Source of the DNA: Ethanoligenens harbinense YUAN-3
GTDB lineage: Bacteria > Bacillota > Clostridia > Oscillospirales > Ethanoligenentaceae
DNA length: 64,000 bases
Assembly: GCF_000178115.2 (NCBI RefSeq)
Contig: NC_014828.1
Location: 186,001-250,000 of the forward strand
Direction of reading: 5' to 3'
The first letter of the stretch is position 1. The number at the start of each line of letters is the position of its first letter. The translations under genes and the position numbers were made by a program. This document shows positions 303 to 51,990 of the stretch, in pieces. The notes beneath the pieces were generated by a model. That model saw only the letters and a list, made by a program, of their open reading frames with translations. It did no database searches and was not told the origin of the DNA.

Positions 303-1195
303 GCCCGCGCACCCGCCTTTTCCACAAAAATTTCATGCAGCGACGGGGTGCGGATCTCAAAACGGTCGATGCGCACGCCGTCGTCCAGCAGACCGCGCAG
401 AAAACGGTAGGCGTCCGCTTCGTCGCGGATGCGGCATTCCAGGCCGCGCGCGTCCTGCTCCAAAACCGTCAGCCCGGCTGTTTCCGCGCGCGCATGCACG
501 TCCTTCCCGCACTCGACCGACAAGTTGGTGCGGCCATAGCCATCCTTGATGGCGCGCAGGTTGCCCTGCAAAACCGTCTGCCCGTCTTTCAGCATTAGGA
601 TATCGCGGCAGAAGGCTTCCACCGACTCCATCTGATGGCTGGAAAGCACGATGTATTTGCCTTCGGCCGCCTGTTCGCGCATCACATCCGCAAACAGGTC
701 GGCGTTCACCGGGTCGAGCCCGCTGATCGGCTCATCCAGCACCACCAGGTCCGGATCATGCAGCAGTGCGGCGGCCAGCTGCACTTTCTGCTGGTTGCCT
801 TTGGAGAGCTGGTCGGCGGTCATCCTGTCATATTTGCCGATTTCCAGCCGCTCATACCACCGGCGGATGGACTGCCTGGCAGCCTGCGCGTTCATGCCGC
901 GCAGGCTGGCGAAATAGAAGAGCTGCTCCCCCACGCGGATCTTGGGATAGAGCCCGCGCTCCTCGGGCAGATAGCCGAACGACACGTTTTCCCGCGTGAC
1001 CGGGCGGCCGTCCCAGGTGATGGTGCCGGCGTCCTGCTCCAGAATGCCGAGCAGCATCCGGATGGTGGTCGTCTTACCTGCGCCGTTGGTGCCCAGCAGG
1101 CCGAATACCCCCGGACTGTCCATCGTGAAGGAAAGGTTCTGCACGGCGGTCTTGCCGCCGTATTGCTTGCGAACATGCTCTACATGCAGCCCCAT
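299..1195 (-). CDS. ABC transporter ATP-binding protein (NatA-like exporter ATPase)
   Basis: 298-aa cytoplasmic ATPase. It has Walker A GTNGAGKTT, a Q-loop region, signature LSKGNQQKVQLA, Walker B DLVVLDEP and H-loop SSHQ, followed by a C-terminal extension of about 80 residues typical of the NatA/DrrA/CcmA group that works with ABC-2 permeases. The ATG at 1195 is preceded by GAGGGGAAACC; a longer in-frame start at 1255 has no ribosome binding site. The stop overlaps the permease start, and the gene lies downstream of a small membrane protein and an XRE regulator in one minus-strand operon. The pump drives export of an unknown compound (antibiotic, peptide or Na+ in known relatives). Confidence 0.93.
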   Translation of the reverse strand: MGLHVEHVRKQYGGKTAVQNLSFTMDSPGVFGLLGTNGAGKTTTIRMLLGILEQDAGTITWDGRPVTRENVSFGYLPEERGLYPKIRVGEQLFYFASLRGMNAQAARQSIRRWYERLEIGKYDRMTADQLSKGNQQKVQLAAALLHDPDLVVLDEPISGLDPVNADLFADVMREQAAEGKYIVLSSHQMESVEAFCRDILMLKDGQTVLQGNLRAIKDGYGRTNLSVECGKDVHARAETAGLTVLEQDARGLECRIRDEADAYRFLRGLLDDGVRIDRFEIRTPSLHEIFVEKAGARA

Positions 1196-1245
1196 GGTTT
1201 CCCCTCGTTTCGTGTGTTTTTGTGATATTATACCGTCTGTAAAGA

Positions 1246-1686
1246 TTATCCCCAACGCCGCAGCACCACCATGCTAATCCATTTCACTGCGATCAGCAGC
1301 AGCAACACCGCAGATAACGCATGCATCATATCCCGGTTAAAAAACGCGGTCACACCCGCAGCCACAGCCAATACCAAAATCCCAACGAACAGCGTCCATT
1401 GGGAGGATCGCATGTCGATCAAAAGATTTCGCTCGTCTTCCTCTTCGATACGGGCCACCCGCTGTTTTTCCGGGTCGCGCAGCGTGTGCAGGGTCTTCAC
1501 CAGCAAGACCACGCCCGCCGCCAGCAGCCCCGCGCCGGCGCCCGCCAGAAAGCTGCCGCCCAAATCGTCGAGATGACCCGCCGCCATACTTCCAATCAGC
1601 AGCGCCAGCCCGGCCGCTACACATGCCGCCGACCAGTTTACGCGCAGATGCATCCTTTTGTTGAATTCCATCTTGCCGATGCGCAT
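1246..1686 (-). CDS. Four-helix membrane protein of an XRE-ABC operon, unknown function
   Basis: 146-aa protein with four hydrophobic segments in two pairs (about 14-34, 40-60, 93-112 and 117-135) separated by a charged cytoplasmic loop containing EEEDERNLLIDMRSSQ. Small membrane proteins with a DERxxLI motif after the second helix often sit next to short XRE regulators in Firmicutes (DUF2178-like); that family name is a guess from the motif. The start at 1686 has GAGGTGA six bases upstream and lies 4 bases past the stop of the regulator gene. It may be an accessory part of the ABC exporter encoded downstream. No enzymatic motif is visible. Confidence 0.75.
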   Translation of the reverse strand: MRIGKMEFNKRMHLRVNWSAACVAAGLALLIGSMAAGHLDDLGGSFLAGAGAGLLAAGVVLLVKTLHTLRDPEKQRVARIEEEDERNLLIDMRSSQWTLFVGILVLAVAAGVTAFFNRDMMHALSAVLLLLIAVKWISMVVLRRWG

Positions 1687-1690
1687 GATG

Positions 1691-1885
1691 TCACCTCTCA
1701 AACAGAAAAATGTCCTCAATCGTCACGCCCAGAGCCTTTGCGAGACGAAATGCCAGCAAGACCGACGGGTTGAACCGCCCGGCCTCGATGGCAATGACGG
1801 TTTGGCGGGAGATATCTGCCGCGTCCGCCAGCGCCTGCTGGGTCATGCCGCGCAGGCGGCGCAGCTCCCGGAGCCTGTTCTCCAC
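1691..1885 (-). CDS. Small XRE-family (Cro/CI) transcriptional regulator
   Basis: 64-aa protein that is almost entirely a helix-turn-helix domain (LRRLRGMTQQALADAADISR, then QTVIAIEAGRFNPSVLLAFR), ending ALGVTIEDIFLFER as in YozG-type mini-repressors. The GTG start at 1885 has AGGAGG seven to eight bases upstream. It is the first gene of the minus-strand exporter operon. Two near-identical 24-bp operator-like direct repeats flank its promoter and ribosome binding site, so it probably represses its own operon. There is no effector domain, so any signal must come through another partner, perhaps the membrane protein encoded next. Confidence 0.93.
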   Translation of the reverse strand: MENRLRELRRLRGMTQQALADAADISRQTVIAIEAGRFNPSVLLAFRLAKALGVTIEDIFLFER

Positions 1886-1896
1886 GCTGGTTCCTC

Positions 1897-1964
1897 CTGA
1901 AATGTCATCTATCCATTACATTGAGCATAACAGACAGTGCATGAAATGTCAATCATTCATTACA
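1897..1964. repeat. Two operator-like direct repeats upstream of the XRE regulator
   Basis: The segments 1897-1920 and 1941-1964 read almost alike (plus strand TGAAATGTCA followed by an AT-rich part and ATTACA) and are 44 bp apart, close to four helical turns. Each contains an imperfect dyad (ATGTAA and TGACAT on the minus strand). One overlaps the -35 element, the other lies just upstream of the ribosome binding site, as expected for autorepression by the adjacent XRE protein. Confidence 0.6.
1924..1952 (-). promoter_or_regulatory. SigA-type promoter of the XRE-ABC exporter operon
   Basis: On the minus strand TTGACA (1952-1947), a 17-bp spacer and TATGCT (1929-1924). Transcription would start near 1918, about 33 bases before the GTG of the regulator. 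Confidence 0.7.
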
Positions 1965-1996
1965 TTTTGTACTGCACAAAAAATATGTGTCGGCAC

Positions 1997-2025
1997 TTGC
2001 GTTTTGAATAAAAACATGCTATACT
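1997..2025 (+). promoter_or_regulatory. Promoter of tRNA-Gly
   Basis: TTGCGT (1997-2002), a 17-bp spacer and TATACT (2020-2025), placed about 27 bases ahead of the tRNA 5' end. Confidence 0.65.
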
Positions 2026-2052
2026 GGAACACACTTTCGGCTGAAATCATCT

Positions 2053-2126
2053 GCGGGTGTGATTCAATGGTAGAATTCCAGCTTCCCAAGCTGGCCGCGT
2101 GGGTTCGATTCCCATCACCCGCTCCA
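2053..2126 (+). tRNA. tRNA-Gly(CCC), CCA end encoded
   Basis: Full cloverleaf. The acceptor stem GCGGGTG pairs with CACCCGC (2116-2122), the discriminator is T2123 and an encoded CCA follows. The anticodon arm CCAGC-TTCCCAA-GCTGG gives anticodon CCC, reading the glycine codon GGG, and a T-arm with GGTTCGATTCC is present. It stands alone with its own promoter and terminator. Confidence 0.95.
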
Positions 2127-2150
2127 ACAGGCTGAGCCTGCACGCAATAT

Positions 2151-2184
2151 GCGCCCGTACCCCAACCCGGTACGTGCGTTTTTG
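2151..2184 (+). terminator. Terminator of tRNA-Gly
   Basis: CGTACC pairs with GGTACG, extended past one mismatch by GCG/CGC pairs, followed by TTTTTG. It lies directly downstream of the tRNA. Confidence 0.6.
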
Positions 2185-2213
2185 CTGCCCGCGCCGCCAT
2201 GAGGAGAAACCGC

Positions 2214-2786
2214 ATGGAACAGCAGCACGACAAGCGCACTTGGAACCTGTCCCGGGCCGCGGCGATTACCGCGCTTTGTTCACTGGGTATTCTGGTGTGC
2301 CTGGGAGAACTTCGGCAGCGGAACATTTTCTTCTATTTTTTCGGGCTTCAGACAAAGCTTGTCCTGCGGATCACCGGCGGAGTTCTGCTCTCGGCGGTTT
2401 GCGGGCTGATCATGGTCAACCTGAAAAACGTGGTCCTCACAACCATTGCCGCAATCCTGTACATCATCGCGCTGATGCTGTACTTCATATGTAACGTCTG
2501 GACATCCGGAGAAGAAAAATATTACGAATTTCAGTCGCCCGACCATAAAAGGACCATCGTGGTGGAAGAATGCAGCTGGCTGTTGGCAGGGGGGAGCAAT
2601 GTGTATCAGAAGACCAGCCCGTTCACCATTACGAAATTGAAAAGCGATATCAGCACAGATGACGGATACCGCCCGTTTGAAAACAAGGACTTTGCGATCA
2701 CCTGGTCGGCCCGCACTGTAACGATCGCCTACGGTTTCGGTAACGGCGGCGATACGCGCCCCTTCACAACCGTTCAGCTGCAATAA
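2214..2786 (+). CDS. Membrane protein with extracytoplasmic C-terminal domain, unknown function
   Basis: 190-aa protein with three hydrophobic segments (about 14-31, 51-70 and 73-95) followed by a soluble domain of about 95 residues containing the run YYEFQSPDHKRTIVVEECSW. The phrase 'sequence of SPDxK then TIVVEE' is reminiscent of other small Firmicute surface domains, but I do not recognise the family. The start is set at ATG 2214 because GAGGAG lies eight bases upstream; an ATG five codons earlier has no site. It is transcribed alone, after the tRNA terminator, and ends at a shared hairpin with the convergent DUF815 gene. No catalytic motif is visible. Confidence 0.8.
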   Translation: MEQQHDKRTWNLSRAAAITALCSLGILVCLGELRQRNIFFYFFGLQTKLVLRITGGVLLSAVCGLIMVNLKNVVLTTIAAILYIIALMLYFICNVWTSGEEKYYEFQSPDHKRTIVVEECSWLLAGGSNVYQKTSPFTITKLKSDISTDDGYRPFENKDFAITWSARTVTIAYGFGNGGDTRPFTTVQLQ

Positions 2787-2793
2787 ATCACAC

Positions 2794-2830
2794 AGAAAAA
2801 GAACACCCTCCACCAGCATGGAGGGTGTTC
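2794..2830. terminator. Terminator between the membrane protein and the DUF815 gene
   Basis: A perfect 12-bp stem (GAACACCCTCCA at 2801-2812 with TGGAGGGTGTTC at 2819-2830) and a 6-nt loop. On the minus strand it is followed by TTTTTCTG, so it terminates the DUF815 gene best. It also follows the convergent plus-strand gene by 14 bases. Confidence 0.8.
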
Positions 2831-2858
2831 CCGTTCGCAGGCTCTGTACGGTATGCCA

Positions 2859-4121
2859 TCAGAAATCGTCGAGCGGCAGGCCTTTTTTGATGCGCCCGGC
2901 CACCCAGTCGATATACTGCGTGGCGGTGCGGGGCGAGCGCCCATTGTACCGCAGCGCCCACTGCGCCGCGCCGCGCTCGAGCTGCGCGCCGTCCACATCC
3001 AGGCCACGGTCGGCCGCGAGCGCGCGCACGATATCGAAATAAAGCCGCTGGTCAGGCGAGGTGAACGTGACCGTGATGCCGAAACGGTCGGCCAGCGAGA
3101 GTTTTTCCTGCATGGCGTCCCCGGCATGGATCTCGCTGTCGCGCTCGGAAAAACTCTCCTTGACAAAATGCCGCCGGTTGGAGGTGGCATAGATGACCGT
3201 ATTGCGCGGGCGGGCGGCCACACCGCCTTCTAGCACGGCCTTGAGGGCGGAATAATTGTCGTCGTCGTCGCTGAAGCTCAGATCGTCGATGAAAATGATG
3301 AATTTCAGCGGCACCGAGCCGATGCGCTCAATGATGCGGGCAAATTCCACGATGCAGTCCTTGGATACCTCGATGATGCGCAGCCCGCGCCCGCGGAACT
3401 CGTTGAACACCGCCTTGACGGTGGAGGATTTGCCGGTGCCGCGGTCGCCGTAAAGCAGCATGTTGTTGGCCGAGATGCCGTCGAGGAAATTCGCGGTGTT
3501 TTCCAGCACGATGTTGCGCTCATACTCATAGCCCTTGAGCTGGGCAAGGCGCACCGGATCGGGCGAGGAGATGCCGAACAGGCTGCTGTCCCCCGAAACG
3601 CCGCGCTGCCACTTGAACGCGCCGAAGCTGGCGAACACGCCGCAGCCGTGGGTGGCATGGAACTGTTTCGTTTCTTCCGTCGAAAACGAACCGCCGGTGA
3701 TAAAATCGGGCAGCGAGTCGATGAACGCCACCGAATCGTCGTCGTCAAACGAGGCGCTTGCCGCGGCTTTGATCTCGCGCGGCGAAAGGTCAAGCGCCAT
3801 GGAAAGCGCTTCCAGATCGCGGGCGGCGGCGGCGCGCACGGCTTCTTCCACCCGCCCGGCCGCGGCCTGCCTGGCAAACAGGCTGTCATTCTGCTGCACA
3901 AGCGTGTGCAGCGCGCCGGAAAAATCCAGCACTCCGGCCGTCGCTCTTGCCGGCGCGAGCAGGCTGATGAACGCGCCGTATGCGTCCAGAAACCCGCGCA
4001 GCTCCGCGCCGTGCGCTGTTTCCAGCACCTTTGCAAAGGCCGCCACCACGGGTTTTTCCAGCAGCGGGCGATAAAGCCCCAAAGAAGAAAGCGCCAGACG
4101 CGCTTTTTGCACCGTATCCAT
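2859..4121 (-). CDS. DUF815-family AAA-type ATPase
   Basis: 420-aa cytoplasmic protein. The C-terminal two thirds is a P-loop ATPase domain of the DUF815 family: Walker A GDRGTGKSS, Walker B FIIFIDDLSF, then a sensor-like segment VIYATSNRRHFVKESFSERD. The N-terminal 170 residues are mostly alpha-helical and poorly conserved. Proteins of this family are widespread in bacteria and have no firmly established role. The gene is monocistronic, with its own promoter (TTGACA-18-TACAAT) and terminator. The assignment to family is firm; the substrate is unknown. Confidence 0.9.
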   Translation of the reverse strand: MDTVQKARLALSSLGLYRPLLEKPVVAAFAKVLETAHGAELRGFLDAYGAFISLLAPARATAGVLDFSGALHTLVQQNDSLFARQAAAGRVEEAVRAAAARDLEALSMALDLSPREIKAAASASFDDDDSVAFIDSLPDFITGGSFSTEETKQFHATHGCGVFASFGAFKWQRGVSGDSSLFGISSPDPVRLAQLKGYEYERNIVLENTANFLDGISANNMLLYGDRGTGKSSTVKAVFNEFRGRGLRIIEVSKDCIVEFARIIERIGSVPLKFIIFIDDLSFSDDDDNYSALKAVLEGGVAARPRNTVIYATSNRRHFVKESFSERDSEIHAGDAMQEKLSLADRFGITVTFTSPDQRLYFDIVRALAADRGLDVDGAQLERGAAQWALRYNGRSPRTATQYIDWVAGRIKKGLPLDDF

Positions 4122-4182
4122 TTATAACATCCACACCTTTTTTATGTTGCGCGGGCCGGAAGCCCGCCGCGTGTCACCGCTT

Positions 4183-4212
4183 ATTGTAGACCTGCGCCCG
4201 CCCCGCTGTCAA
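4183..4212 (-). promoter_or_regulatory. Promoter of the DUF815 gene
   Basis: On the minus strand TTGACA (4212-4207), an 18-bp spacer and TACAAT (4188-4183), about 60 bases upstream of the ATG. Confidence 0.65.
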
Positions 4213-4403
4213 CACGGACATTGCCCGCTTTTCGGTTCAGGCGGATTCCACACGAACGACCGGCATACGATCCCAATAAGGCACGCGCCTGTCTCGGTGA
4301 TTTCTGCATATCCTCAAATTGGAGCGCACTCCGTTTGCCTTCCCGTTTGTCCGCTCCGGAACCGCCGCCCCGACGCAAAGCCCCGGCAATTTTGCCGGAA
4401 AGG

Positions 4404-4432
4404 TTGCGCGCCGCGCCGTTTGAGGCTATAAT
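4404..4432 (+). promoter_or_regulatory. Promoter of ilvB-ilvN-ilvC
   Basis: TTGCGC (4404-4409), a 17-bp spacer and a perfect TATAAT (4427-4432). It gives a leader of about 105 nt before ilvB. I see no branched-chain-rich leader peptide, T-box or riboswitch in that leader. The rest of 4213-4403 contains no recognisable gene; there is a small palindrome CCGGCAATTTTGCCGG at 4383-4398. Confidence 0.7.
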
Positions 4433-4542
4433 ATCATATTGAACAGCCTGCGGTATTCCACGCGATTCCACCCACAGGCAGGCCTGTTTCCGCAAACTCT
4501 TTATTGAACGGACAATGTCGTCACGCAGGAGGAACGCTCAGT

Positions 4543-6165
4543 ATGCCAAACGGCGCACAAGCCATGGTAACCGCACTTGAAGCGGAAGGTGTCCGCACGT
4601 TATTCGGTTATCCGGGGGCAGCAATCTGCCCGTTTCTGGACGCGCTCGCGGCGTCCGATATCACCTATCATCTTGTGCGCCATGAGCAAAGCGCCGGGCA
4701 CGCGGCCAGCGGCTATGCCCGTGTTTCCGGTTCACCGGGTGTGTGTTTTGCCACCTCCGGCCCGGGCGCGACCAACCTCATCACCGCGCTGGCCACAGCC
4801 TACATGGACTCCATCCCGCTGGTGGCCATCACCGGGCAGGTGCAAAGCGGCCTCATCGGCCGCGACGTGTTTCAGGAAGCGGATATCACCGGCGCTGCGG
4901 AACCGTTCTGCAAGCACAGTTATCTGGTGCGCGACGCGAACGACCTGCCCCGTGTGATGAAAGAGGCGTTCTATATCGCGCGCAGCGGCCGTCCCGGCCC
5001 CGTGCTGGTGGACGTGCCGTCCGACATACAGGAGCAGCCGGTGACTTCACCGGCGCACCACGAAAAAGTGGACATCCGCGGCTACAAACCGCGCACCAAA
5101 GGCCACGCGCTCCAGATCAAGCGGGTGGCCGAGCGCGTCGCCCGGGCGCAAAAACCTGTCATCTGCGCGGGCGGCGGCATTTTCTCCGCGCACGCGCAGG
5201 CCGTGCTCGCCGCCTTTGCGGAAAAGTGCCGCATCCCGGTGGTAAATACGCTGATGGGCATCGGCGCGCTGCCCGCAGCCCATCCACTGGCGTTCGGCAT
5301 GCTGGGCACCCACGGGCGCGCGGTGGCCAACCATGCCCTGCACAACTGTGACCTGCTCATCATCGCCGGCGGCCGGGTGGGCGACCGCTCCGTGGCGGAG
5401 CCGGATCAGATCGCCGCGCGCACCTGCGTGGTGCACATTGATGTGGACCCGGCGGAGATCGGCAAAAACATGGATGCCGAACTTCCGCTGGTGGGCGACC
5501 TGCGGCTGGTGCTGGAGGCGTTGACCGAGCAGACCGTGCCGGGCGATACCGCCGCATGGGTGGCTTCTCTGGAAAGCCTGCGGGACGCGCCCGAGCCTGC
5601 GCGCCCCCCACACAGCGGCTGTATTGAGCCGCGTGCCTTTTTCCGCACGCTTGCCGCACAGATGGAGGACGATGCCGTGGTGGTGGCGGACGTGGGGCAG
5701 TCCCAGATCTGGGCGGCCAACCACCTCGCCATGCGGCACGGGCGTTTCCTTACCACAGGCGGCATGGGCACCATGGGCTACAGCCTGCCCGCCGCCGTAG
5801 GTGCGGCGGTGGCGTTGCCGGAGAGACAGATCGTAGCCGTGTGCGGGGACGGCGCGTTCCATATGTCCATGATGGAACTGGCCACCATCCGCCAGTACAG
5901 ACTGGACATCAAGCTTGTCGTGATGCACAACGACTGCCTGGGCATGGTGCACGAACTGCAGACCAAGCACTACGGCGGGCGGTATGTGGCCACCTCGCTC
6001 GGCTGCGGCGATCCGGATTTCCAGTTGCTGGCCAAAGCCTACGGGCTGGAAAGCCGCCGCGTGGAGAACGACGCGGACGTTCCGGACGCCGTCGCGCGCA
6101 TGCTGCACGCACCCGGCCCTTATCTGCTGGAATGCCGCATCGACCCCGACGAGCCGACGCTCTGA
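4543..6165 (+). CDS. ilvB: Acetolactate synthase large (catalytic) subunit
   Basis: 540-aa ThDP- and FAD-dependent enzyme. It condenses two pyruvates to acetolactate (valine/leucine) or pyruvate with 2-oxobutyrate (isoleucine). The ThDP-activating glutamate sits in RHEQSAGHAASGYAR near the N terminus, and the ThDP/Mg motif starts GDGAFHMSMMELATI and ends about 26 residues later at HND. The order is N-terminal PYR domain, central FAD-type domain, C-terminal PP domain. ATG 4543 has GGAGGAA upstream; an earlier in-frame ATG at 4504 lacks a site. It is the first gene of ilvB-ilvN-ilvC. Its closeness to the regulatory subunit gene supports the biosynthetic (AHAS) rather than the catabolic (AlsS) form. 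Confidence 0.96.
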   Translation: MPNGAQAMVTALEAEGVRTLFGYPGAAICPFLDALAASDITYHLVRHEQSAGHAASGYARVSGSPGVCFATSGPGATNLITALATAYMDSIPLVAITGQVQSGLIGRDVFQEADITGAAEPFCKHSYLVRDANDLPRVMKEAFYIARSGRPGPVLVDVPSDIQEQPVTSPAHHEKVDIRGYKPRTKGHALQIKRVAERVARAQKPVICAGGGIFSAHAQAVLAAFAEKCRIPVVNTLMGIGALPAAHPLAFGMLGTHGRAVANHALHNCDLLIIAGGRVGDRSVAEPDQIAARTCVVHIDVDPAEIGKNMDAELPLVGDLRLVLEALTEQTVPGDTAAWVASLESLRDAPEPARPPHSGCIEPRAFFRTLAAQMEDDAVVVADVGQSQIWAANHLAMRHGRFLTTGGMGTMGYSLPAAVGAAVALPERQIVAVCGDGAFHMSMMELATIRQYRLDIKLVVMHNDCLGMVHELQTKHYGGRYVATSLGCGDPDFQLLAKAYGLESRRVENDADVPDAVARMLHAPGPYLLECRIDPDEPTL

Positions 6166-6194
6166 CCGCCGCGACCGAAAGGAGACTGAAACAG

Positions 6195-6719
6195 ATGAAG
6201 CATACCCTGTCCGTTCTGGTGGAAAACCGCCCGGGCGTACTCTCCAAAGTGGCCGGGCTGTTCTCGCGCCGCGCCTTCAACATTGACAGTCTGGCCGTAG
6301 GCGTCACGCAGGATCCGTCGGTCTCCCGCATCACCATTGTGGTGGACGGTGACGAATATACCACCGAGCAGGTGGAGAAGCAGCTTAACAAGCTTATCGA
6401 CGTCATCAAAGTCAAAACGCTGCCGCACGGGCAGTTCATCAGCCGGGAGCTGGTGCTGCTCAAGGTGGCGTGCATGGCGGCGAACCGGTCGGAGGTCGTG
6501 CAGATCGCAGACATTTTCGACGCCCGGATCGTGGACGTGACCCGCACCACCCTCACGCTGGAAATCTCGGGTACCGCGTCCCGCATCGCCAGCCTGGAAT
6601 CGCTGCTGGCGCCGTACGGCATCCGCGAAACGGTACGTACCGGCACCATTGCGCTCGAAAAGGGCGCGCAGGACATCACCGCGGGCAGAAAGCCGGCGGA
6701 GGAGCCGTCCGTTTCCTAA
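6195..6719 (+). CDS. ilvN: Acetolactate synthase small (regulatory) subunit
   Basis: 174-aa protein: an N-terminal ACT domain (MKHTLSVLVENRPGVLSKVA, through DSLAVGVTQDPSVSRITIVV) and a C-terminal ALS_ss_C domain that contains RELVLLKVA and DVTRTTLTLEISG. In characterised enzymes this subunit binds to IlvB, raises its activity and confers valine feedback inhibition. It follows ilvB by 29 bases with AAAGGAG ten bases before the ATG, and length and domain order are normal for the full-length IlvH/IlvN type. I use ilvN; ilvH would be equally valid. Confidence 0.95.
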   Translation: MKHTLSVLVENRPGVLSKVAGLFSRRAFNIDSLAVGVTQDPSVSRITIVVDGDEYTTEQVEKQLNKLIDVIKVKTLPHGQFISRELVLLKVACMAANRSEVVQIADIFDARIVDVTRTTLTLEISGTASRIASLESLLAPYGIRETVRTGTIALEKGAQDITAGRKPAEEPSVS

Positions 6720-6760
6720 ACGCTGAACCTTGCGGAACAACCGTTCCGCAGTGCAGATAA

Positions 6761-7804
<1,044 letters not shown>

Positions 7805-7823
7805 GCGTTTTTCCAAACGCAGC

Positions 7824-7856
7824 AAAAGGGCCGACGGCAACTGCCGTCGGCCCTTT
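7824..7856. terminator. Terminator of the ilv operon, shared with the fur-like gene
   Basis: A perfect stem formed by AAAAGGGCCGACGGCA and its complement with a tiny loop; T or A runs flank both sides, so it works in either direction between two convergent genes. Confidence 0.85.
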
Positions 7857-7878
7857 TCATATGGATGCCGCTCGCGCA

Positions 7879-8322
7879 TCATTTCCGGGGCTGCGCGTTT
7901 TCCCCGTCCCGCCTGCGGCAGGCTTCGCAGACCCCGTAAAAAACCACGCGATGATCCTCGATCTGAAAATGTTTGGTCGATTCGATGAGCCGTTCAAGTC
8001 CGTCGAGCAGGTCGGCTTCAAAATCCAGGATCGCGCCGCATTTCCGGCAGACCAGGTGGTGGTGCGCGTGCGGCGACTGTGCATCGCTCATTTCATAATA
8101 GGCAAGCGAATCGTCCGCCACATAGACCTTCTTGACCGTGCCGTTTTCCTCCAGCAGCCGCAGATTGCGATAGACCGTGGCGATGCTGATGGTCTGGCTC
8201 TCCTGCCGGATGCGGTTGTAGATCTCCTCGGCCGTCATATGCGCGCCGCCCGCGTTTTTCATGCAGTCCAAAATCAACTGCTTTTGTTTGGTGTTTCTGG
8301 TTTCCTTATGCGGTTTTTCCAA
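7879..8322 (-). CDS. Fur-family metal-dependent transcriptional regulator
   Basis: About 147-aa DNA-binding protein of the Fur/PerR/Zur group. It has a winged helix with ATVYRNLRLLEENG, a metal-binding stretch HAHHHLVCRKCG, and a C-terminal CEAC that completes the structural zinc site of two CxxC motifs. I cannot decide between iron, zinc, manganese or peroxide sensing. The start is put at TTG 8322, which has GGGGGG five bases upstream. An in-frame ATG at 8379 coincides with the predicted transcription start, so it would be leaderless and is less likely. It is monocistronic and convergent with ilvC. Confidence 0.88.
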   Translation of the reverse strand: MEKPHKETRNTKQKQLILDCMKNAGGAHMTAEEIYNRIRQESQTISIATVYRNLRLLEENGTVKKVYVADDSLAYYEMSDAQSPHAHHHLVCRKCGAILDFEADLLDGLERLIESTKHFQIEDHRVVFYGVCEACRRRDGENAQPRK

Positions 8323-8387
8323 TGCGACCCCCCGCTCCTGCCCGGCCCGGCGCGCGATGCCGTGCGCCGGGTGCTGCATTTCTTTAT

Positions 8388-8416
8388 AGTATAAGCCGGA
8401 TCGCCCGGTTTGGCAA
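8388..8416 (-). promoter_or_regulatory. Promoter of the fur-like gene
   Basis: On the minus strand TTGCCA (8416-8411), a 17-bp spacer and TATACT (8393-8388). The predicted transcription start lies near 8381, which argues for the downstream TTG start codon. Confidence 0.7.
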
Positions 8417-8788
8417 GTGAGGATACACCCGCCGACAGGCAGCCGCCCATCCAAACAACAAAGCGGGCGCCTCTGAACGGGACACCCGCTTTGCCCTTGC
8501 ATACATCATCCATCCGCTCTGCAAAAGTGGATTTCTTTACGGCAGCTTTACATAACAGAGGATTTTCCCGTCTCAACCAGAACCTTTCCACACTTTCCAC
8601 CGGGTTTTCCACCGCGCAGCCCGCTCGGATTGCCCACCGGAGAGGCCCGTTGTGGAAAAATCAGAGGTTTTCCTCCGCAACCTGTCGAGAAACGGCGATG
8701 TGTCGGTTTACATAATCCGACCGATTTCCGTATAAACCAACCGTTCCGCCCCCGGTGCCGCACACCGGAATACAACGAACCGCCCGAT
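8417..8788. other. Gene-free stretch between the fur promoter and thrS
   Basis: No credible gene. It contains three TTTCCAC heptamers in direct orientation (8585-8591, 8594-8600, 8606-8612) and one inverted copy (8652-8658), each close to half of a DnaA box. No AT-rich unwinding region or origin genes lie nearby. No clear thrS terminator is visible. Confidence 0.4.
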
Positions 8789-10726
8789 TCAATGCCGTTT
8801 TTCGGCGATTTCCTGCAGGATATCCTTCAAAAAGGCATCCACGGTCTGGGTGCCGCCCTCGCCTACGCGCGCGCGCACCGACACCGTGCCCTCTTCGGCC
8901 TCGCGGTCGCCCGCCACCAGCATATAGGGCACTTTTTCGAGCTGTGCCTCGCGGATGCGGTAGCCGATCTTCTCGTTGCGCTGGTCCACGGTGGCGCGCA
9001 GGCCGGCGGCGCGGAGTTTTTCCAGCACGGGTTGGGCATACGCCTCGTGCTTCTCGGAGATGGGCAGCACACGCACCTGCTCGGGGGCCAGCCAGGTGGG
9101 CATTGCGCCGGCGTATTTTTCGATGAGCAGAGCCAGGGTGCGTTCATAGCAGCCGATGGACGTGCGGTGGATAACATAGGGATATTTCTCCTGCCCGTCC
9201 GTGTCGGTATATTTCATTTCAAAGCGTTTGGCCAGCTGGAAGTCGATCTGCACGGTGATGAGGGTGTCTTCCTTACCGAATACATTACGGATCTGGATGT
9301 CAAGCTTGGGTCCGTAGAACGCCGCCTCGCCCGACGCCTCGGTGTATTGGATGCCGAGGTCGTCCAGGATGTTGCGCATGCGGTCCTGTACTTCTTCCCA
9401 CTGTTCGCTGGTGCCGATATATTTGTCGCGGTCGTTCTCATCCCATTTGGAGAAGCGGTAGGACACATCCTCGTCCAGCCCGACCGTTTTGAGCATGAAA
9501 TTCGCCAGATCGACGCAGCCTTTGAATTCTTCCTCCAACTGGTCGGGGCGGCAGGCGATGTGGCCTTCCGAAATGGTGAACTGCCGCACGCGGATGAGCC
9601 CGTGCATCTCGCCGGACGCTTCGTTGCGGAACAGCGTGGAGGTCTCGCCCAGGCGCATGGGCAGATCACGGTAGCTGCGCTTTTTGTTGAGGTAGACCTG
9701 GAACTGGAACGGGCAGGTCATGGGGCGCAGGGCGAACACCTCGTCGTCCTTTTCCTCATCGCCCAGCACGAACATGCCGTCGCGGTAGTGGTCCCAATGG
9801 CCGGAAATTTTGTAGAGGTCGCTCTTGGCCAGCAGCGGCGTTTTGGTGAGCAGGTAGCCGCGCTTTTCCTCCTCGTCCTCCACAAAGCGCTGAAGCAGCT
9901 GGAGTACGCGGGAGCCCTTGGGCAGCATCACCGGCAGGCCCTGCCCGATATAATCCACCGTGGTGAAGAACCCCAGTTCACGGCCGAGTTTGTTATGGTC
10001 GCGCTTGCGGGCCTCCTCCAGCATAGTAATGTGGGCATCCAGTTCGGCCTTTTTGGGAAACGCCGTGCCGTATACGCGGCGCAGCATCTTGTTTTTGGCA
10101 TCGCCACGCCAATACGCGCCGGTGCTGGAGGTCAGCTTGAACGCCTTGACACGCCCGGTGTCGGGCAGATGCGGGCCGGCGCACAGCTCGGTGAACTCGC
10201 CCTGTTTATAGAAGGAAATGGGCTCGCCCTTACCGGCGTGCTCGTTGATGAGCTCCACTTTATACGGTTCGCTTTTTTCCTCCATCAGCTTGACGGCCTC
10301 GGGAGCGGGCAGAGTGAAGCGTTCGATGGGCAGGTCTTCCTTGACGATTTTCTTCATCTCGGCCTCGATTTTGGCCAGTTCCTCCTGTGTGAAAGAGAGG
10401 TCGCTGTCGAAATCGTAATAGAAGCCGTCCTCAATGGCGGGACCGATGGTCAGCTTTACCTCGGGATAGAGCCGCTTGACGGCCTGCGCAAGAATGTGCG
10501 ACGCGGTGTGGTTGAAGGCTTTTTTACCGTCCGGGTCATCGAATGTGAGCAGTTCGAGCGTGTCGCCGTCCTGCAGTTGGGTGCGCAGGTCCACGACTTT
10601 TCCGCCTATGCGTGCGGCGCAGACCGCCTTATATAACCCCGCGCCCAGCTCTTTGGCCAGCGCGAGCGCCGTCGCGCCCGGCTCCACGGCACGAATACTG
10701 CCGTCTTTCAAGGTGATGTTTGGCAT
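8789..10726 (-). CDS. thrS: Threonyl-tRNA synthetase
   Basis: 645-aa class II synthetase that charges tRNA-Thr. In order it has an N-terminal TGS domain (MPNITLKDGSIRAVEPGATA), the second editing domain with HTASHILAQAVKRLYPE and CAGPH, the catalytic core with class II motif 2 (FRNEASGEMHGLIRVRQFT) and the zinc-site segment MTCPFQFQVY, and the anticodon-binding domain (VRVLPISEKH to the end). Length is normal. ATG 10726 has AGGAGA nine bases upstream; an in-frame extension to 10780 lacks one. Expression is controlled by the T-box leader immediately upstream. Confidence 0.97.
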   Translation of the reverse strand: MPNITLKDGSIRAVEPGATALALAKELGAGLYKAVCAARIGGKVVDLRTQLQDGDTLELLTFDDPDGKKAFNHTASHILAQAVKRLYPEVKLTIGPAIEDGFYYDFDSDLSFTQEELAKIEAEMKKIVKEDLPIERFTLPAPEAVKLMEEKSEPYKVELINEHAGKGEPISFYKQGEFTELCAGPHLPDTGRVKAFKLTSSTGAYWRGDAKNKMLRRVYGTAFPKKAELDAHITMLEEARKRDHNKLGRELGFFTTVDYIGQGLPVMLPKGSRVLQLLQRFVEDEEEKRGYLLTKTPLLAKSDLYKISGHWDHYRDGMFVLGDEEKDDEVFALRPMTCPFQFQVYLNKKRSYRDLPMRLGETSTLFRNEASGEMHGLIRVRQFTISEGHIACRPDQLEEEFKGCVDLANFMLKTVGLDEDVSYRFSKWDENDRDKYIGTSEQWEEVQDRMRNILDDLGIQYTEASGEAAFYGPKLDIQIRNVFGKEDTLITVQIDFQLAKRFEMKYTDTDGQEKYPYVIHRTSIGCYERTLALLIEKYAGAMPTWLAPEQVRVLPISEKHEAYAQPVLEKLRAAGLRATVDQRNEKIGYRIREAQLEKVPYMLVAGDREAEEGTVSVRARVGEGGTQTVDAFLKDILQEIAEKRH

Positions 10727-10789
10727 ATCGTTCACTCTCCTGTTCTCGGCGCCGTTTGCCGTACGTGAGGGAAAAGGCATCCACGGCGC

Positions 10790-46859: not shown

Positions 46860-46888
46860 ATTATACAGCTTCCGGACTCCGCTGTCAA
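46860..46888 (-). promoter_or_regulatory. Consensus promoter of rpsU
   Basis: On the minus strand a perfect TTGACA (46888-46883), a 17-bp spacer and a perfect TATAAT (46865-46860), as expected for a highly expressed ribosomal gene. The rest of 46889-47122 shows no gene. Confidence 0.85.
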
Positions 46889-47261: not shown

Positions 47262-48578
47262 GTGGACAATCAAGTGCTGTATGAACAAGCCGGGCAGGTC
47301 AATCACGCGCTTGAGCGCTATGGCGTCAAGTTCGGCGTATACAAAAACGGAGAATTTCACGAACAGCTCTTTCCATTTGACGCACTGCCACGGGTGATTC
47401 CCGCAGACCAGTTCGCCAGGCTCGAACGGGGCCTGATCCAGCGGGTTTGCGCGCTCAACCTGTTTTTATCCGACATCTACTCCAAACGCTGTATCCTGCG
47501 GGATGGCGTCATCCCGCCCGAATTCATCTATTCCTCCAAGGGCTTTCTGCTGGCCTGTCAGGGCATCCGCCCCCCACAGGACGTATACGCCCATATCTCG
47601 GGTATCGATCTGGTGGAAGCGCCCGACGGATGGTATGTATTGGAAGACAATCTGCGCGTTCCATCCGGCGCGTCCTACCCCATGATCGCCCGCGAGATCG
47701 TGCGGCGCGTCACCCCGTCTTTATTTGAAAAGAACCGTGTGCACGAGAACCGCAACTACGCCGGGCTGCTGGCCGGCATGTTCCGTGAGGTGCAGCGCCC
47801 CGGCATTGTGGTGGTGCTCACCCCGGGGCGGTACAACTCCGCGTTTTTCGAACACGCCTATCTGGCCGAAAAGACCGGCGCCACCCTCGCGTTCCCCGAG
47901 GACCTGGAGGTGGAGGGGGACGTGGTTTATTACAAGAGCTTCGACGGCAAAAAGCAGCGGGTGGGCGCCATTTACCGCCGGGTCTCGGATGAATTTCTCG
48001 ACCCGCTCCTCTTTGACGAGCGTTCCGTCATCGGCGTGCCGCACCTGATGGAAGCCTACCGCAAGGGAAACGTGGCGCTCATCAACGCGCCGGGCAACGG
48101 CGTGGCCGATGACAAGGGTACTTATTATTTCGTGCCGAAAATGATCCGCTACTACCTGGGCGAGGAGCCCATTTTGCAGAATGCCCCCACCTACGTGCCG
48201 TATTATGAAGAAGACAAGGCCTATATCCTCGCGCACCTCGATAAGCTTGTCATCAAAGACGTAAGCGAGGCGGGCGGATACGGCGTCGTGTTCGGGCGCG
48301 ATCTTGCCGCCGCCAAACGGGAAGAGCTGCGGCAGGCCATTCTGGCCAAACCCCGTCGGTTCATTGCGCAGGAGATTATCAATTTTAATGATCTGAATAT
48401 CTGTCTTGACGGCAAACCCGTTCCGCGCAAAGCCGATTTCCGCGCGTTTGTCGTGCATGGGCAGGACATCCGCGTCTGGCACAGCGGCCTGACGCGTTAT
48501 GCATTGCAGGCCGGCTCGTTCGTCGTCAACTCGTCACAGGGGGGAGGGTTCAAGGACACATGGGTACTGTATCGATAA
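47262..48578 (+). CDS. Circularly permuted ATP-grasp protein (DUF404/DUF407 type)
   Basis: 438-aa protein of the circularly permuted ATP-grasp family. Diagnostic segments: VEAPDGWYVLEDNLRVPSG, NGVADDKGTYYFVPKMIRYY followed by LGEEPILQNAPTY, GGYGVVFGRDLA (the lid glycines) and the C-terminal VVNSSQGGGFKDTWVL. ATP-grasp enzymes form amide or peptide bonds via acyl phosphates; this group is predicted, not proven, to make peptide-like products. The GTG start has AAGGAG seven bases upstream. It is the first gene of five and overlaps the alpha-E gene by 19 bases. Confidence 0.9.
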   Translation: MDNQVLYEQAGQVNHALERYGVKFGVYKNGEFHEQLFPFDALPRVIPADQFARLERGLIQRVCALNLFLSDIYSKRCILRDGVIPPEFIYSSKGFLLACQGIRPPQDVYAHISGIDLVEAPDGWYVLEDNLRVPSGASYPMIAREIVRRVTPSLFEKNRVHENRNYAGLLAGMFREVQRPGIVVVLTPGRYNSAFFEHAYLAEKTGATLAFPEDLEVEGDVVYYKSFDGKKQRVGAIYRRVSDEFLDPLLFDERSVIGVPHLMEAYRKGNVALINAPGNGVADDKGTYYFVPKMIRYYLGEEPILQNAPTYVPYYEEDKAYILAHLDKLVIKDVSEAGGYGVVFGRDLAAAKREELRQAILAKPRRFIAQEIINFNDLNICLDGKPVPRKADFRAFVVHGQDIRVWHSGLTRYALQAGSFVVNSSQGGGFKDTWVLYR

Positions 48579-49216
48579 CACAGGCGGAAAAGCTCTATTG
48601 GCTTGGGCGGTACGCGGAGAGGGCCTATACGCTCACCGGCCTGCTCGCACGGTATTACGACCGCATGCTCGACGCAGACGCGGACGCCTATCGGGAATAC
48701 TGCATGAGGCTCGGCATCCCGGATATCTACCGCGACAAAACGGATTTTCTGTGCCGCATTCTGGGAGACGCAGGCAGCCAGGCCAGTATCGCCTATGCTC
48801 TGGGGCAGGCCAATATCAACGCCATGCTGCTGCGCGACCGGCTGGCCACCGAAACGGCGTCTTATATCCAGTCCGCCTGCAACGCCGTTCCGCAGGATTT
48901 TCAGGAGAGCGTCTCCATTACCCTGCGGAACGTGACCGGTCTGCTGCTGGCGTTCTGGGGCGCGGTGGACGACCTGATCCTTGCGGACGACGTGCGTGAT
49001 TTCATCAAGGCGGGCAAATACACCGAGCGCGTTGACCTCTATACCCGGTTTGAGCTGGGCGAGCCCTCGCTCGGCGCCGCCAAACGGCGCCTTTCCCGTT
49101 CCCTTGCGCATATCGACGACGCCGGCGTCTGCAAAGACCTGGCCGACATGCTGACCGAGGGGCGCAGCGTGACCACCCGCCAGATCGACGAAGGCATCAT
49201 CGACATGCTCCAATGA
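48560..49216 (+). CDS. Alpha-E (DUF403) domain protein, short form
   Basis: 218-aa all-helical protein of the DUF403/alpha-E family. It opens SITQAEKLYWLGRYAERAYT, the family signature, and has mostly helical, leucine- and alanine-rich sequence afterwards. The usual members are about 300 aa, so this is a short form. Alpha-E proteins nearly always sit beside a circularly permuted ATP-grasp and a transglutaminase, as here. They are predicted scaffold or substrate-carrier partners; no activity is known. It overlaps the ATP-grasp gene by 19 bases, and a gap of 62 bases precedes the transglutaminase gene. Confidence 0.88.
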   Translation: MGTVSITQAEKLYWLGRYAERAYTLTGLLARYYDRMLDADADAYREYCMRLGIPDIYRDKTDFLCRILGDAGSQASIAYALGQANINAMLLRDRLATETASYIQSACNAVPQDFQESVSITLRNVTGLLLAFWGAVDDLILADDVRDFIKAGKYTERVDLYTRFELGEPSLGAAKRRLSRSLAHIDDAGVCKDLADMLTEGRSVTTRQIDEGIIDMLQ

Positions 49217-49278: not shown

Positions 49279-50100
49279 ATGAAACGGTTTTCCTTTGAAT
49301 ATCGGTCGTCTATCCGGTTCAGCCAGCCGGTCAAGGCACATCATTTCCGGCTCAAATGCCTGCCCGGACGCTTTGCGTTCCAGCACATCTACCACGAGTG
49401 TTGCGCCTTTGCGGGCGGCATCACGCCGCTGGAGGGGGCCGACGCGTTCGGCAACCGCACGCTGGCGGGCACCATCGCGGAACCGCACGACCTGTTTGCG
49501 TTCACGGTCTCGGGCGAGGCGCTGCAGAGCTTTTATCTGCTGCGCGAGCCGCTTGACGATCTGTTCCTGTATGAAAGCCCGCTCACGCATATGAGCGGCG
49601 CGATGGAAGCCTTTGCGCAGACCATCCCGGGTGGGGGCACCGCGGCCAAACAGGCCAGCGCCGTCTGCAAGGCGCTGCAGGCGCGGCTGACCTACCTGCC
49701 CGCCTCCACCGATGTGGACATGCCGGCGGCGGACGCGTTTGCCCAGGGCAAGGGGGTCTGCCAAGACTATGCGCAGATCGCGGTGGCTCTGCTGCGCGGC
49801 CGGGGTATTCCCGCGCGGTACTGCGCGGGCCTGATGCCCGGCGAGGGCGAGACCCACGCGTGGGTGGAATATTACGACGGCGGCGCGTGGCACGGCATCG
49901 ACCCCACCAACGACCGTGCGATCGATTACGGCTACATCAAGCTCTCCCACGGGCGCGACAGCGCCGACTGCCGGGTGGACCGGGGCTGCTTCGTGGGCCC
50001 CGCGGAGCAGGTGGAGCAGACCTTGGAAATCCATGTTAAAGTAGGGGAACAATGTGATCAAGAAAGTGGAAACGGTCAGCCGGACCTGCCTGCCCGTTGA
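49279..50100 (+). CDS. Transglutaminase-like cysteine protease family protein
   Basis: 273-aa protein with a bacterial transglutaminase N-terminal beta domain (FSFEYRSSIRFSQPVKAHHF) and a catalytic core with the full triad: Cys161 in GKGVCQDYAQIA, His193 in GETHAWVEYY and Asp208 in HGIDPTND. Without a signal peptide it acts in the cytoplasm. In this neighbourhood such proteins are predicted peptidases or amide-cleaving/ligating enzymes acting on the ATP-grasp product. ATG 49279 has GGGAGGAAACGACAC upstream. The end overlaps the next gene by 47 bases. Confidence 0.9.
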   Translation: MKRFSFEYRSSIRFSQPVKAHHFRLKCLPGRFAFQHIYHECCAFAGGITPLEGADAFGNRTLAGTIAEPHDLFAFTVSGEALQSFYLLREPLDDLFLYESPLTHMSGAMEAFAQTIPGGGTAAKQASAVCKALQARLTYLPASTDVDMPAADAFAQGKGVCQDYAQIAVALLRGRGIPARYCAGLMPGEGETHAWVEYYDGGAWHGIDPTNDRAIDYGYIKLSHGRDSADCRVDRGCFVGPAEQVEQTLEIHVKVGEQCDQESGNGQPDLPAR

Positions 50101-51037
50101 CGAAATGCTGTGCATCCGGCGCTGCCGCTACCTCCCGGGGAACCTTACCGAAGATGCGATCGCCGGGCTGCCGCGCATCTCGCTCGTCACCGGCGTACAC
50201 GGGGACGAACTGGAAGGGCAGTTTACCTGCTATGAGCTGGGAAGCCAGTTGGCGCAGCATCCCGAAGGGCTCACCGGCGTGGTGGACATTTACCCGGCCA
50301 TCAATCCGCTGGGCATCGAATCCATCCGCCGCGGCGTGCCGGGTTTCAACGTGGAGATGAACCGGCTTTTTCCCGGCAACCCCGATGGGTTCATCGTGGA
50401 AAAAGTAGCCGGGGAAGTGCTTGAGAGTCTTGTTGGCTCCGATCTGGTGGTGGATATCCACGCCAGCAACATCTTCCTGCGGGAGCTGCCGCAGGCGCGC
50501 ATCAACGAGAACGACGCGGAAACGCTCACGCCGCTTGCTTCCCGGCTCAACCTCGATTTTCTGTGGATACATCCGTCGGCTACGGTGCTGGAATCCACGC
50601 TGGCGCATTCGCTGAACGCGCGCGACACACGCTGTATCGTGGTGGAGATGGGCGTGGGCATGCGCATCACACGCACATATGGCCATCAACTGGTGCGGGG
50701 GATCTTTAACGTGATGCGGGCGCTGGGTATCTGGAACATCCCGGACGCGGGCATGGACACACCGCATAAGACCCTTTGTTCTCTGGAGCGCGGCGTCTAT
50801 TTTCTCAACGCAGAAGCTTCCGGCATTTTCGTGCCCCGCGTGGAGCACTGCGCCATCATGGAAAAAGGTGAGGAGATCGGGCGCATTCTCGATCCGCTCA
50901 CCTGCACCGTCCAGGAACGCATCATCGCACCGTGCAGCGGGCTGGTGTTCACCCTACGGGAATACCCGGTGGTCTACACCGGCTCGCTCATCGCGCGGAT
51001 GATTGAAGGTGTGGAGGATTATCAGCTGCGAATATGA
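50054..51037 (+). CDS. AspA/AstE-type zinc carboxypeptidase (M14-like), intact site
   Basis: 327-aa member of the succinylglutamate desuccinylase/aspartoacylase family. Zinc ligands His49 and Glu52 in VTGVHGDELEGQ and His136 in VVDIHASN; substrate arginine and Asn in FNVEMNRLFPGN; general-base Glu198 in CIVVEMGVG; a C-terminal beta-barrel domain (from GIFVPRVEHCAI). The family cleaves amide bonds of N-acyl amino acids or peptides. The GTG start has AGGGGA six bases upstream, inside the transglutaminase gene. It is followed, with a 4-base overlap, by a degenerate paralogue. Confidence 0.85.
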   Translation: MIKKVETVSRTCLPVDEMLCIRRCRYLPGNLTEDAIAGLPRISLVTGVHGDELEGQFTCYELGSQLAQHPEGLTGVVDIYPAINPLGIESIRRGVPGFNVEMNRLFPGNPDGFIVEKVAGEVLESLVGSDLVVDIHASNIFLRELPQARINENDAETLTPLASRLNLDFLWIHPSATVLESTLAHSLNARDTRCIVVEMGVGMRITRTYGHQLVRGIFNVMRALGIWNIPDAGMDTPHKTLCSLERGVYFLNAEASGIFVPRVEHCAIMEKGEEIGRILDPLTCTVQERIIAPCSGLVFTLREYPVVYTGSLIARMIEGVEDYQLRI

Positions 51038-51990
51038 AAAAGAAAACGATCTTTCAACTAAACGCCCCCTACCGGGAGCCGATGCGCGTTACCGCGTTTT
51101 TGTTCGGTGACGCGGATCCCGCTGCACGCGAAACCGGCTGCGCCGTTATGGGCGCCACCCGCGGCAATGAGGCGCAACAGATTTACACCTGTGCCCATCT
51201 CGTGGAACGCCTGCAGGAACTGGAGCAGCAGGGCGGCATCGCCCCCGGCAGACAGATTGCCGTCATTCCCACCGTCAATCCCTATTCGGCGAATACGGCG
51301 CACCGCTTCTGGCCCATGGACGATACCGACATCAACCGCATGTTTCCCGGCTACAGTCTGGGCGAAACCACCCAGCGCATTGCCTGGCATGTGTTCGAAT
51401 ATGTCAGGCCCTACCGGTACGGCGTGCACCTTTCCAGCTACTATATGCCGGGTGAATTCATGCCGCATGTCCGCATGATGCAGACCGGCTATGAGGATAC
51501 GGACGCCGCCGCGCTGTTCGGCATGCCCTATGTCTATGTACGAAAAACGCGGCCTTACGACACCACCACGCTCAACTACAACTGGCAGATATTTGGAACA
51601 CACGCATTCTCCCTCTACGCCGGCAAAACCGATGAACTGGACGAAGCCGCCACTGCGCGCTCGGTGCGGGCCGTCCTGCGCTTCCTGAAAGGCATGGGCC
51701 TTCTTACGGACAAGGTGGAGATCCCCAGCCGTCCCGGTCACGCTCCCACGCAGGTCATCACCGGGGAAAACCTTACCCCCGTGCTGGCCAAAACCGGCGG
51801 TATCATGCGCCGTGTACGCCACGCTGGCGACATGGTGCGCCGCGGCAGCGAGCTTGGCTACATTCACGACCCATATGACAACCGTATCCGGCAGACGCTG
51901 CTCTCCCCCAAAGACGGGCGGGTGTTTTTTGTGCACCGCAACCCGTTCGTCTATGAAAACACAACCGCCTACCGCATCCTGAGTATCTGA
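51034..51990 (+). CDS. AspA/AstE-type paralogue with a broken zinc/catalytic site (putative pseudoenzyme)
   Basis: 318-aa paralogue of the preceding protein, with the same order of motifs (IPTVNPYSANT, DINRMFPGYS, C-terminal GGIMRRVRHAGDMVRRGSEL barrel). The first zinc ligand is Arg43 (GATRGNEAQQ instead of HGNE), Glu46 and His132 remain, and the general-base position is Tyr195 (SLYAG) where the paralogue has Glu198. A single base (CAC to CGC) would account for the His to Arg change. It is therefore probably a pseudoenzyme that binds ligand or regulates its neighbour. An assembly error is unlikely to create both changes. ATGA overlap with the upstream gene. Confidence 0.85.
   Translation: MKKKTIFQLNAPYREPMRVTAFLFGDADPAARETGCAVMGATRGNEAQQIYTCAHLVERLQELEQQGGIAPGRQIAVIPTVNPYSANTAHRFWPMDDTDINRMFPGYSLGETTQRIAWHVFEYVRPYRYGVHLSSYYMPGEFMPHVRMMQTGYEDTDAAALFGMPYVYVRKTRPYDTTTLNYNWQIFGTHAFSLYAGKTDELDEAATARSVRAVLRFLKGMGLLTDKVEIPSRPGHAPTQVITGENLTPVLAKTGGIMRRVRHAGDMVRRGSELGYIHDPYDNRIRQTLLSPKDGRVFFVHRNPFVYENTTAYRILSI

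Follow-up and report, generated by a model that had tools for sequence, protein, structure and literature searches.

Two adjacent genes of Ethanoligenens harbinense YUAN-3 raise the question of why a bacterium should keep, directly beside an apparently intact metalloenzyme gene, a related copy that has lost the residues needed for catalysis. Both lie in the window analysed here (the whole stretch of 64,000 nucleotides, positions 186,001 to 250,000 of contig NC_014828.1; all coordinates below are counted from its first letter). The first gene (50054..51037, plus strand) codes for protein A, an AstE/ASPA-type metallohydrolase of 327 aa with a GTG start, and the second (51034..51990, plus strand) codes for protein B, a pseudoenzyme of the AstE/ASPA fold of 318 aa with an ATG start; the stop of A and the start of B share the bases ATGA. 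The original prediction had taken the open reading frame at 51034-51990 and its upstream neighbour as real genes, which they are, and had named their products zinc carboxypeptidases. This label is loose, since the family is that of AstE/ASPA (PF24827; A, E 6e-20 and 72.1 bits; B, E 6.2e-13 and 49.2 bits; cut-off 25), with a fold shared by DoeB and CphZ.

Protein A contains the complete catalytic set, all encoded on the plus strand: the zinc ligands His49 and Glu52 in an HGDE motif (50198..50209), evident from the sequence and from the alignment of A proteins, the third zinc ligand His136 (50459..50461) and the general base Glu198 (50645..50647). Across the A family these residues do not vary (His49 and Glu52 in 31/31, one A protein being cut off before both; His136 and Glu198 in 32/32). 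The AlphaFold2 model of A has a mean pLDDT of 90.5 and matches 6twm (DoeB/EutE) with Z 30.4 and rmsd 2.4 over 299 aligned residues. In all likelihood A works as an active zinc amidohydrolase.

The state of protein B was established with an alignment of the A and B families (32 proteins each), rerun under five MAFFT settings with 12 outgroup proteins, and with a profile-profile comparison of the two families by hhalign (301 columns, probability 99.9, E 1.4e-31). Arg43 (CGC, 51160..51162, plus strand) falls on His49 of A, and Tyr195 (TAC, 51616..51618, plus strand) on the general base Glu198, both in the alignment of the two families and under the five settings with outgroups, as had been proposed from the window alone. 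These replacements recur in the orthologues: among 32 loci from four phyla, the first position is Arg in 32/32 and the second is aromatic in 32/32 (Tyr in 30, Phe in 2). Several features had been listed as kept in B, and Glu46 (51169..51171; 32/32), a zinc ligand in the family, the NRMFPG segment and the C-terminal barrel indeed are. His132, also on that list, is not a zinc ligand that has been retained. In the stretch His132-Leu-Ser134 (51427..51435, plus strand), the MAFFT alignments put Ser134 at the place of the lost second zinc histidine and His132 opposite Asp134 of A; hhalign likewise sets His132 on Asp134 and leaves A His136 opposite a gap. Position 132 is moreover Gln in 24 of the 32 B proteins and His in 8, and the position of A His136 is Ala in 23, Thr in 6, Ser in 2 and Val in 1, never a histidine. 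Because His132 pairs with Asp134 and the His136 position holds no histidine, neither zinc histidine nor the base is left in B, a loss seen in 32/32 B proteins; Glu46 is the sole survivor of the four catalytic residues. A shifted alignment that would restore the zinc histidine to B was also considered, and all MAFFT settings and hhalign agree against it. In the AstE-like outgroup proteins the His/Glu/His/Glu set is intact in 12/12.

A copy without a catalytic set might simply be decaying in this genome, or the loss might be an artefact of alignment, but either idea is hardly tenable, since the same replacements are found at 32 loci in four phyla, the MAFFT settings and hhalign agree, and the dN/dS of B, taken from close pairs without saturation at synonymous sites, is 0.03-0.11 and equals that of A. 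A mutation private to this genome is rejected on the same grounds. Relatives of B share 39-58% identity in tblastn alignments and come from whole genomes of the class and from contigs named as Clostridia, Bacteroidales, Treponema, a single Planctomycete and others. Mean identity among B proteins reaches 57% in the catalytic domain and 34% in the barrel; the dead domain is therefore the best-conserved part of the protein and must be used for something. The proposal that B is a pseudoenzyme thus stands: the orthologues keep the Arg and the Tyr/Phe, no shifted alignment gives back the zinc site or the base, and selection acts on B as it does on A.

The two genes are also bound to each other. A lies directly upstream of B at 32/32 loci, the genes overlap in 20 of the 32 pairs (by exactly 4 bases in 12), and the 15 genomes with strong matches to A, out of 391 sampled evenly from the class, are also the 15 with strong matches to B. 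Pairwise identities of A and of B across loci are correlated (Pearson 0.87, Spearman 0.58). In the tree, the A proteins fall into a single clade and the B proteins into another (support 99 for each). The internal order of the two clades is similar, with Bacteroidota, Planctomycetota and Treponema grouping together in A as well as in B, for example; a duplication within the operon is a plausible origin of the two genes. A scan of plasmids returned, among the matches listed, only ordinary AstE relatives with 22-29% identity. Since B has lost both zinc histidines and the catalytic Glu and is nevertheless preserved by selection, this look-alike, which certain bacteria from gut and soil, belonging to four phyla or more, encode beside the enzyme, would more probably be a partner of A without catalysis of its own than a decaying copy.

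What B has kept suggests what such a partner might do. Arg91 (51304..51306, plus strand), which aligns with an invariant Arg93 of A, is present in 32/32 B proteins, and so are Asn101 and Arg102 of the NRMFPG segment (51334..51351, plus strand), where Asn, Arg, Phe, Pro and Gly are found in 32/32 and Met in 31/32. Arg91 and Asn101-Arg102 align with residues that we take to be those binding the substrate carboxylate in this fold (ASPA, M14 enzymes), so that the putative carboxylate site is preserved in every B protein. The AlphaFold2 model of B (mean pLDDT 90.3) matches 3cdx with Z 28.5 and rmsd 2.9 over 297 aligned residues. In this monomer model the pLDDT drops below 50 in the loop 87-93, in which Asn87, Arg91 and Phe92 are invariant and Trp93 nearly so; strong conservation combined with poor placement would be expected of a loop that depends on a partner or a ligand.

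Such a loop, which might become ordered on a partner, together with the strict pairing and frequent overlap of the genes, would also suit a B protein that serves only in structure or assembly, standing in with an empty pocket for one A subunit of an ancestral homo-oligomer. This seems rather unlikely, because the pocket (Arg43, Glu46, Arg91, Asn101, Arg102 and Tyr195) is far more conserved than the barrel, and a purely structural protein would have no need of it. The high conservation of the catalytic domain could instead be read as the mark of a separate enzyme, working by zinc-free chemistry or with a metal site relocated among its own invariant residues, on another step of the same pathway. 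Thirty-five columns are invariant in B, many of them absent from A (Gln48, Gln49, Asn87, Phe92, Asp96, Glu111, Thr113, Asp176 and Asn183), and His145, Asn181, Tyr182, Trp184 and Gln185 are nearly so; Gln48, Gln49, Asn183 and their neighbours could form a new active site. However, neither a catalytic triad nor a metal set could be recognised in B, the family residues kept in it (Arg91, Asn101, Arg102) are the binding ones, and although genes of two proteins acting independently in one pathway might also be linked and overlap, the strictness of the pairing with A exceeds what a shared pathway needs. A second enzyme is thus an improbable reading too, and binding by a non-catalytic B remains the preferred one.

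The genomic context points to the reaction in which the pair could take part. At most loci, A and B lie downstream of genes for an ATP-grasp protein, an alpha-E protein and a transglutaminase. In the window these are a circularly permuted (cp) ATP-grasp of the short form (438 aa; 47262..48578, plus strand; PF14403, E 1.3e-140), found upstream of most A/B pairs, a shortened alpha-E protein of 218 aa (48560..49216, plus strand; PF04168, E 1e-21, covering only model positions 6-163 of 294) and a transglutaminase-like protein (49282..50100, plus strand, in a frame that opens at 49213; PF01841, E 5.1e-19). The 3' neighbour of the pair is a GDT1-type transporter gene. On the minus strand, at 46860-46888, a promoter that matches the sigma-70 consensus at 12/12 positions (TTGACA, 17 nt, TATAAT) is directed away from the cluster. 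The trio of cp-ATP-grasp, alpha-E and transglutaminase, here present together, is that of the operons of Anbu, a proteasome-like protein that has been proposed to be the hydrolase in a system for peptide synthesis or tagging (PMC5666114; PMC6376114), although its substrates are unknown and no peptidase activity was detected in published tests (PMC6376114).

A search for Anbu with PF00227 proved too insensitive (it gave long, weak frames in 7/40 genomes with cp-ATP-grasp). With an Anbu protein as the query instead, Anbu was found in 6/6 positive controls and in none of the 24 genomes that carry A and B. Matches of about 180 aa in genomes with the pair were discarded as Anbu candidates; they have the size of HslV, and the one tested is HslV. 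As A and B mostly sit in an operon with the trio and no Anbu was found in these 24 genomes, the pair holds Anbu's place. Its operons thus share with those of Anbu the same three linked partner families and differ in having A and B instead of Anbu, and in the ATP-grasp, which has about 475-506 aa in Anbu operons and 438 aa in the form found with the pair; the alpha-E protein, too, is longer there, at about 310-322 aa against the 218 aa of the window. The longer ATP-grasp is seen both with and without Anbu in its operon. The alpha-E protein has about 220 aa in the operons with A and B, and 310-357 aa in those with the longer ATP-grasp. Four Bacteroidota loci (L152-L155) combine cp-ATP-grasp, a full-length alpha-E and a transglutaminase with neither Anbu nor A/B adjacent.

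In the class sample, the pair is present in 12/12 genomes with a strong full-length match to cp-ATP-grasp, and three more genomes (G221, G295 and G316) have it without cp-ATP-grasp. Among 238 Bacteroidota genomes, 93 have cp-ATP-grasp and only one (G442) has a strong B; its ATP-grasp is of the short form, and nearly all the other Bacteroidota ones are longer. At two loci (L040, L048) the pair points away from the trio and yet stays intact. Given its occurrence in three genomes without cp-ATP-grasp, the role of the pair cannot everywhere depend on that operon. At one such locus (L087 of G221, 829-10739), A and B lie beside genes for a 4-aminobutyrate transaminase, an amino-acid ABC transporter, a PucR/CdaR-type regulator and an iron alcohol dehydrogenase, neighbours that would fit a hydrolase freeing an amino acid from an amide.

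Taken together, the data describe how, in a variant of the Anbu-type operon, an enzyme is paired with a pseudoenzyme, both of them conserved and both from the AstE/ASPA family; the pseudoenzyme character of B is well supported, and its role would be that of a partner. With a probability of about two in three, B is a conserved AstE/ASPA pseudoenzyme acting as a non-catalytic, ligand-binding subunit of an A-B hetero-oligomer in the place of Anbu. The losses and replacements in B, its strict pairing with A, the purifying selection and the operon context without Anbu are observed, and we infer the complex itself, the ligand of B, the regulation and the substrate of A. B keeps the fold and Arg91/Asn101-Arg102, with Arg43 where zinc would sit and an aromatic side chain where the base would be. 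Because of these kept carboxylate residues, Arg43 and the aromatic residue at 195, B probably binds its ligand uncut; this ligand may be an acyl-amino acid or a peptide end, as for A. With the ligand bound, B might position the substrate for A or tune its activity. The position of the pair in the place of Anbu makes amide hydrolysis for the ligase system its likely job, and A and B would hydrolyse amide products or intermediates of the ATP-grasp ligase. A bolder and quite tentative version sees in A-B a heteromeric amidohydrolase of a kind not described before, standing in for Anbu in an amidoligase operon that is widespread; the pocket of B, with Arg for zinc, would then be a ligand sensor or else a new metal-free active site.

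Comparison with known systems places the pair in a family and offers precedents for its organization. Structure searches with the models of A and B returned AstE/ASPA and M14-type folds, and both proteins match over their full length the AstE/ASPA members DoeB/EutE (6twm) and CphZ (8eip), the latter a cyanophycin dipeptide hydrolase. These solved members are only about 14-23% identical to A and B, and whereas A has the full catalytic set of these enzymes, B is without both zinc histidines and the base. Neither protein can be named DoeB (N-acetyl-diaminobutanoate deacetylase) or assigned to another named equivalog, A scoring 57 and B 22.5 bits against an NCBIfam cut-off of 402.7. In vertebrates, the M14 proteins CPX1, CPX2 and AEBP1 are inactive members of the wider carboxypeptidase fold that lack catalytic residues and are kept by selection, but they are secreted animal proteins with no operon pairing to an active copy. 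A solved precedent is the M23 heterodimer Csd1-Csd2 of Helicobacter pylori, composed of an active zinc metallopeptidase and a homologue with incomplete ligands and no bound metal (PMC5053510). It resembles A-B in pairing an active metalloenzyme with a metal-less homologue; it differs in its unrelated peptidase family and cell-wall substrate, and in being an established heterodimer where A-B is a putative one. According to Chan et al. 2015, as cited in PMC5053510, the M14 relative Csd4 is active with Gln replacing one zinc His, so that, on that account, a single ligand change is no proof of inactivity; in B, however, both histidines and the base are gone, against the one ligand described for Csd4. 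The literature yielded no description of the A/B pair, although a mention in the 2009 survey of amidoligase operons (PMC3268129) is possible.

What the Anbu operon does is still a puzzle, and a version in which an amide hydrolase of a better known class stands in for Anbu limits the reactions that may make up the missing step: a bond of the acyl-amino-acid or isopeptide-like type would be hydrolysed. The step also becomes testable with two small, probably soluble proteins. At one locus (L012, G059:C39), a single ORF (892-2424, minus strand) joins B to a class I methyltransferase domain, which makes up its C-terminal part at about residues 350-490 (PF08241, E 4.3e-22). The pair is, finally, a clean case in which to ask how the fold of a metalloenzyme survives once the metal site has gone.
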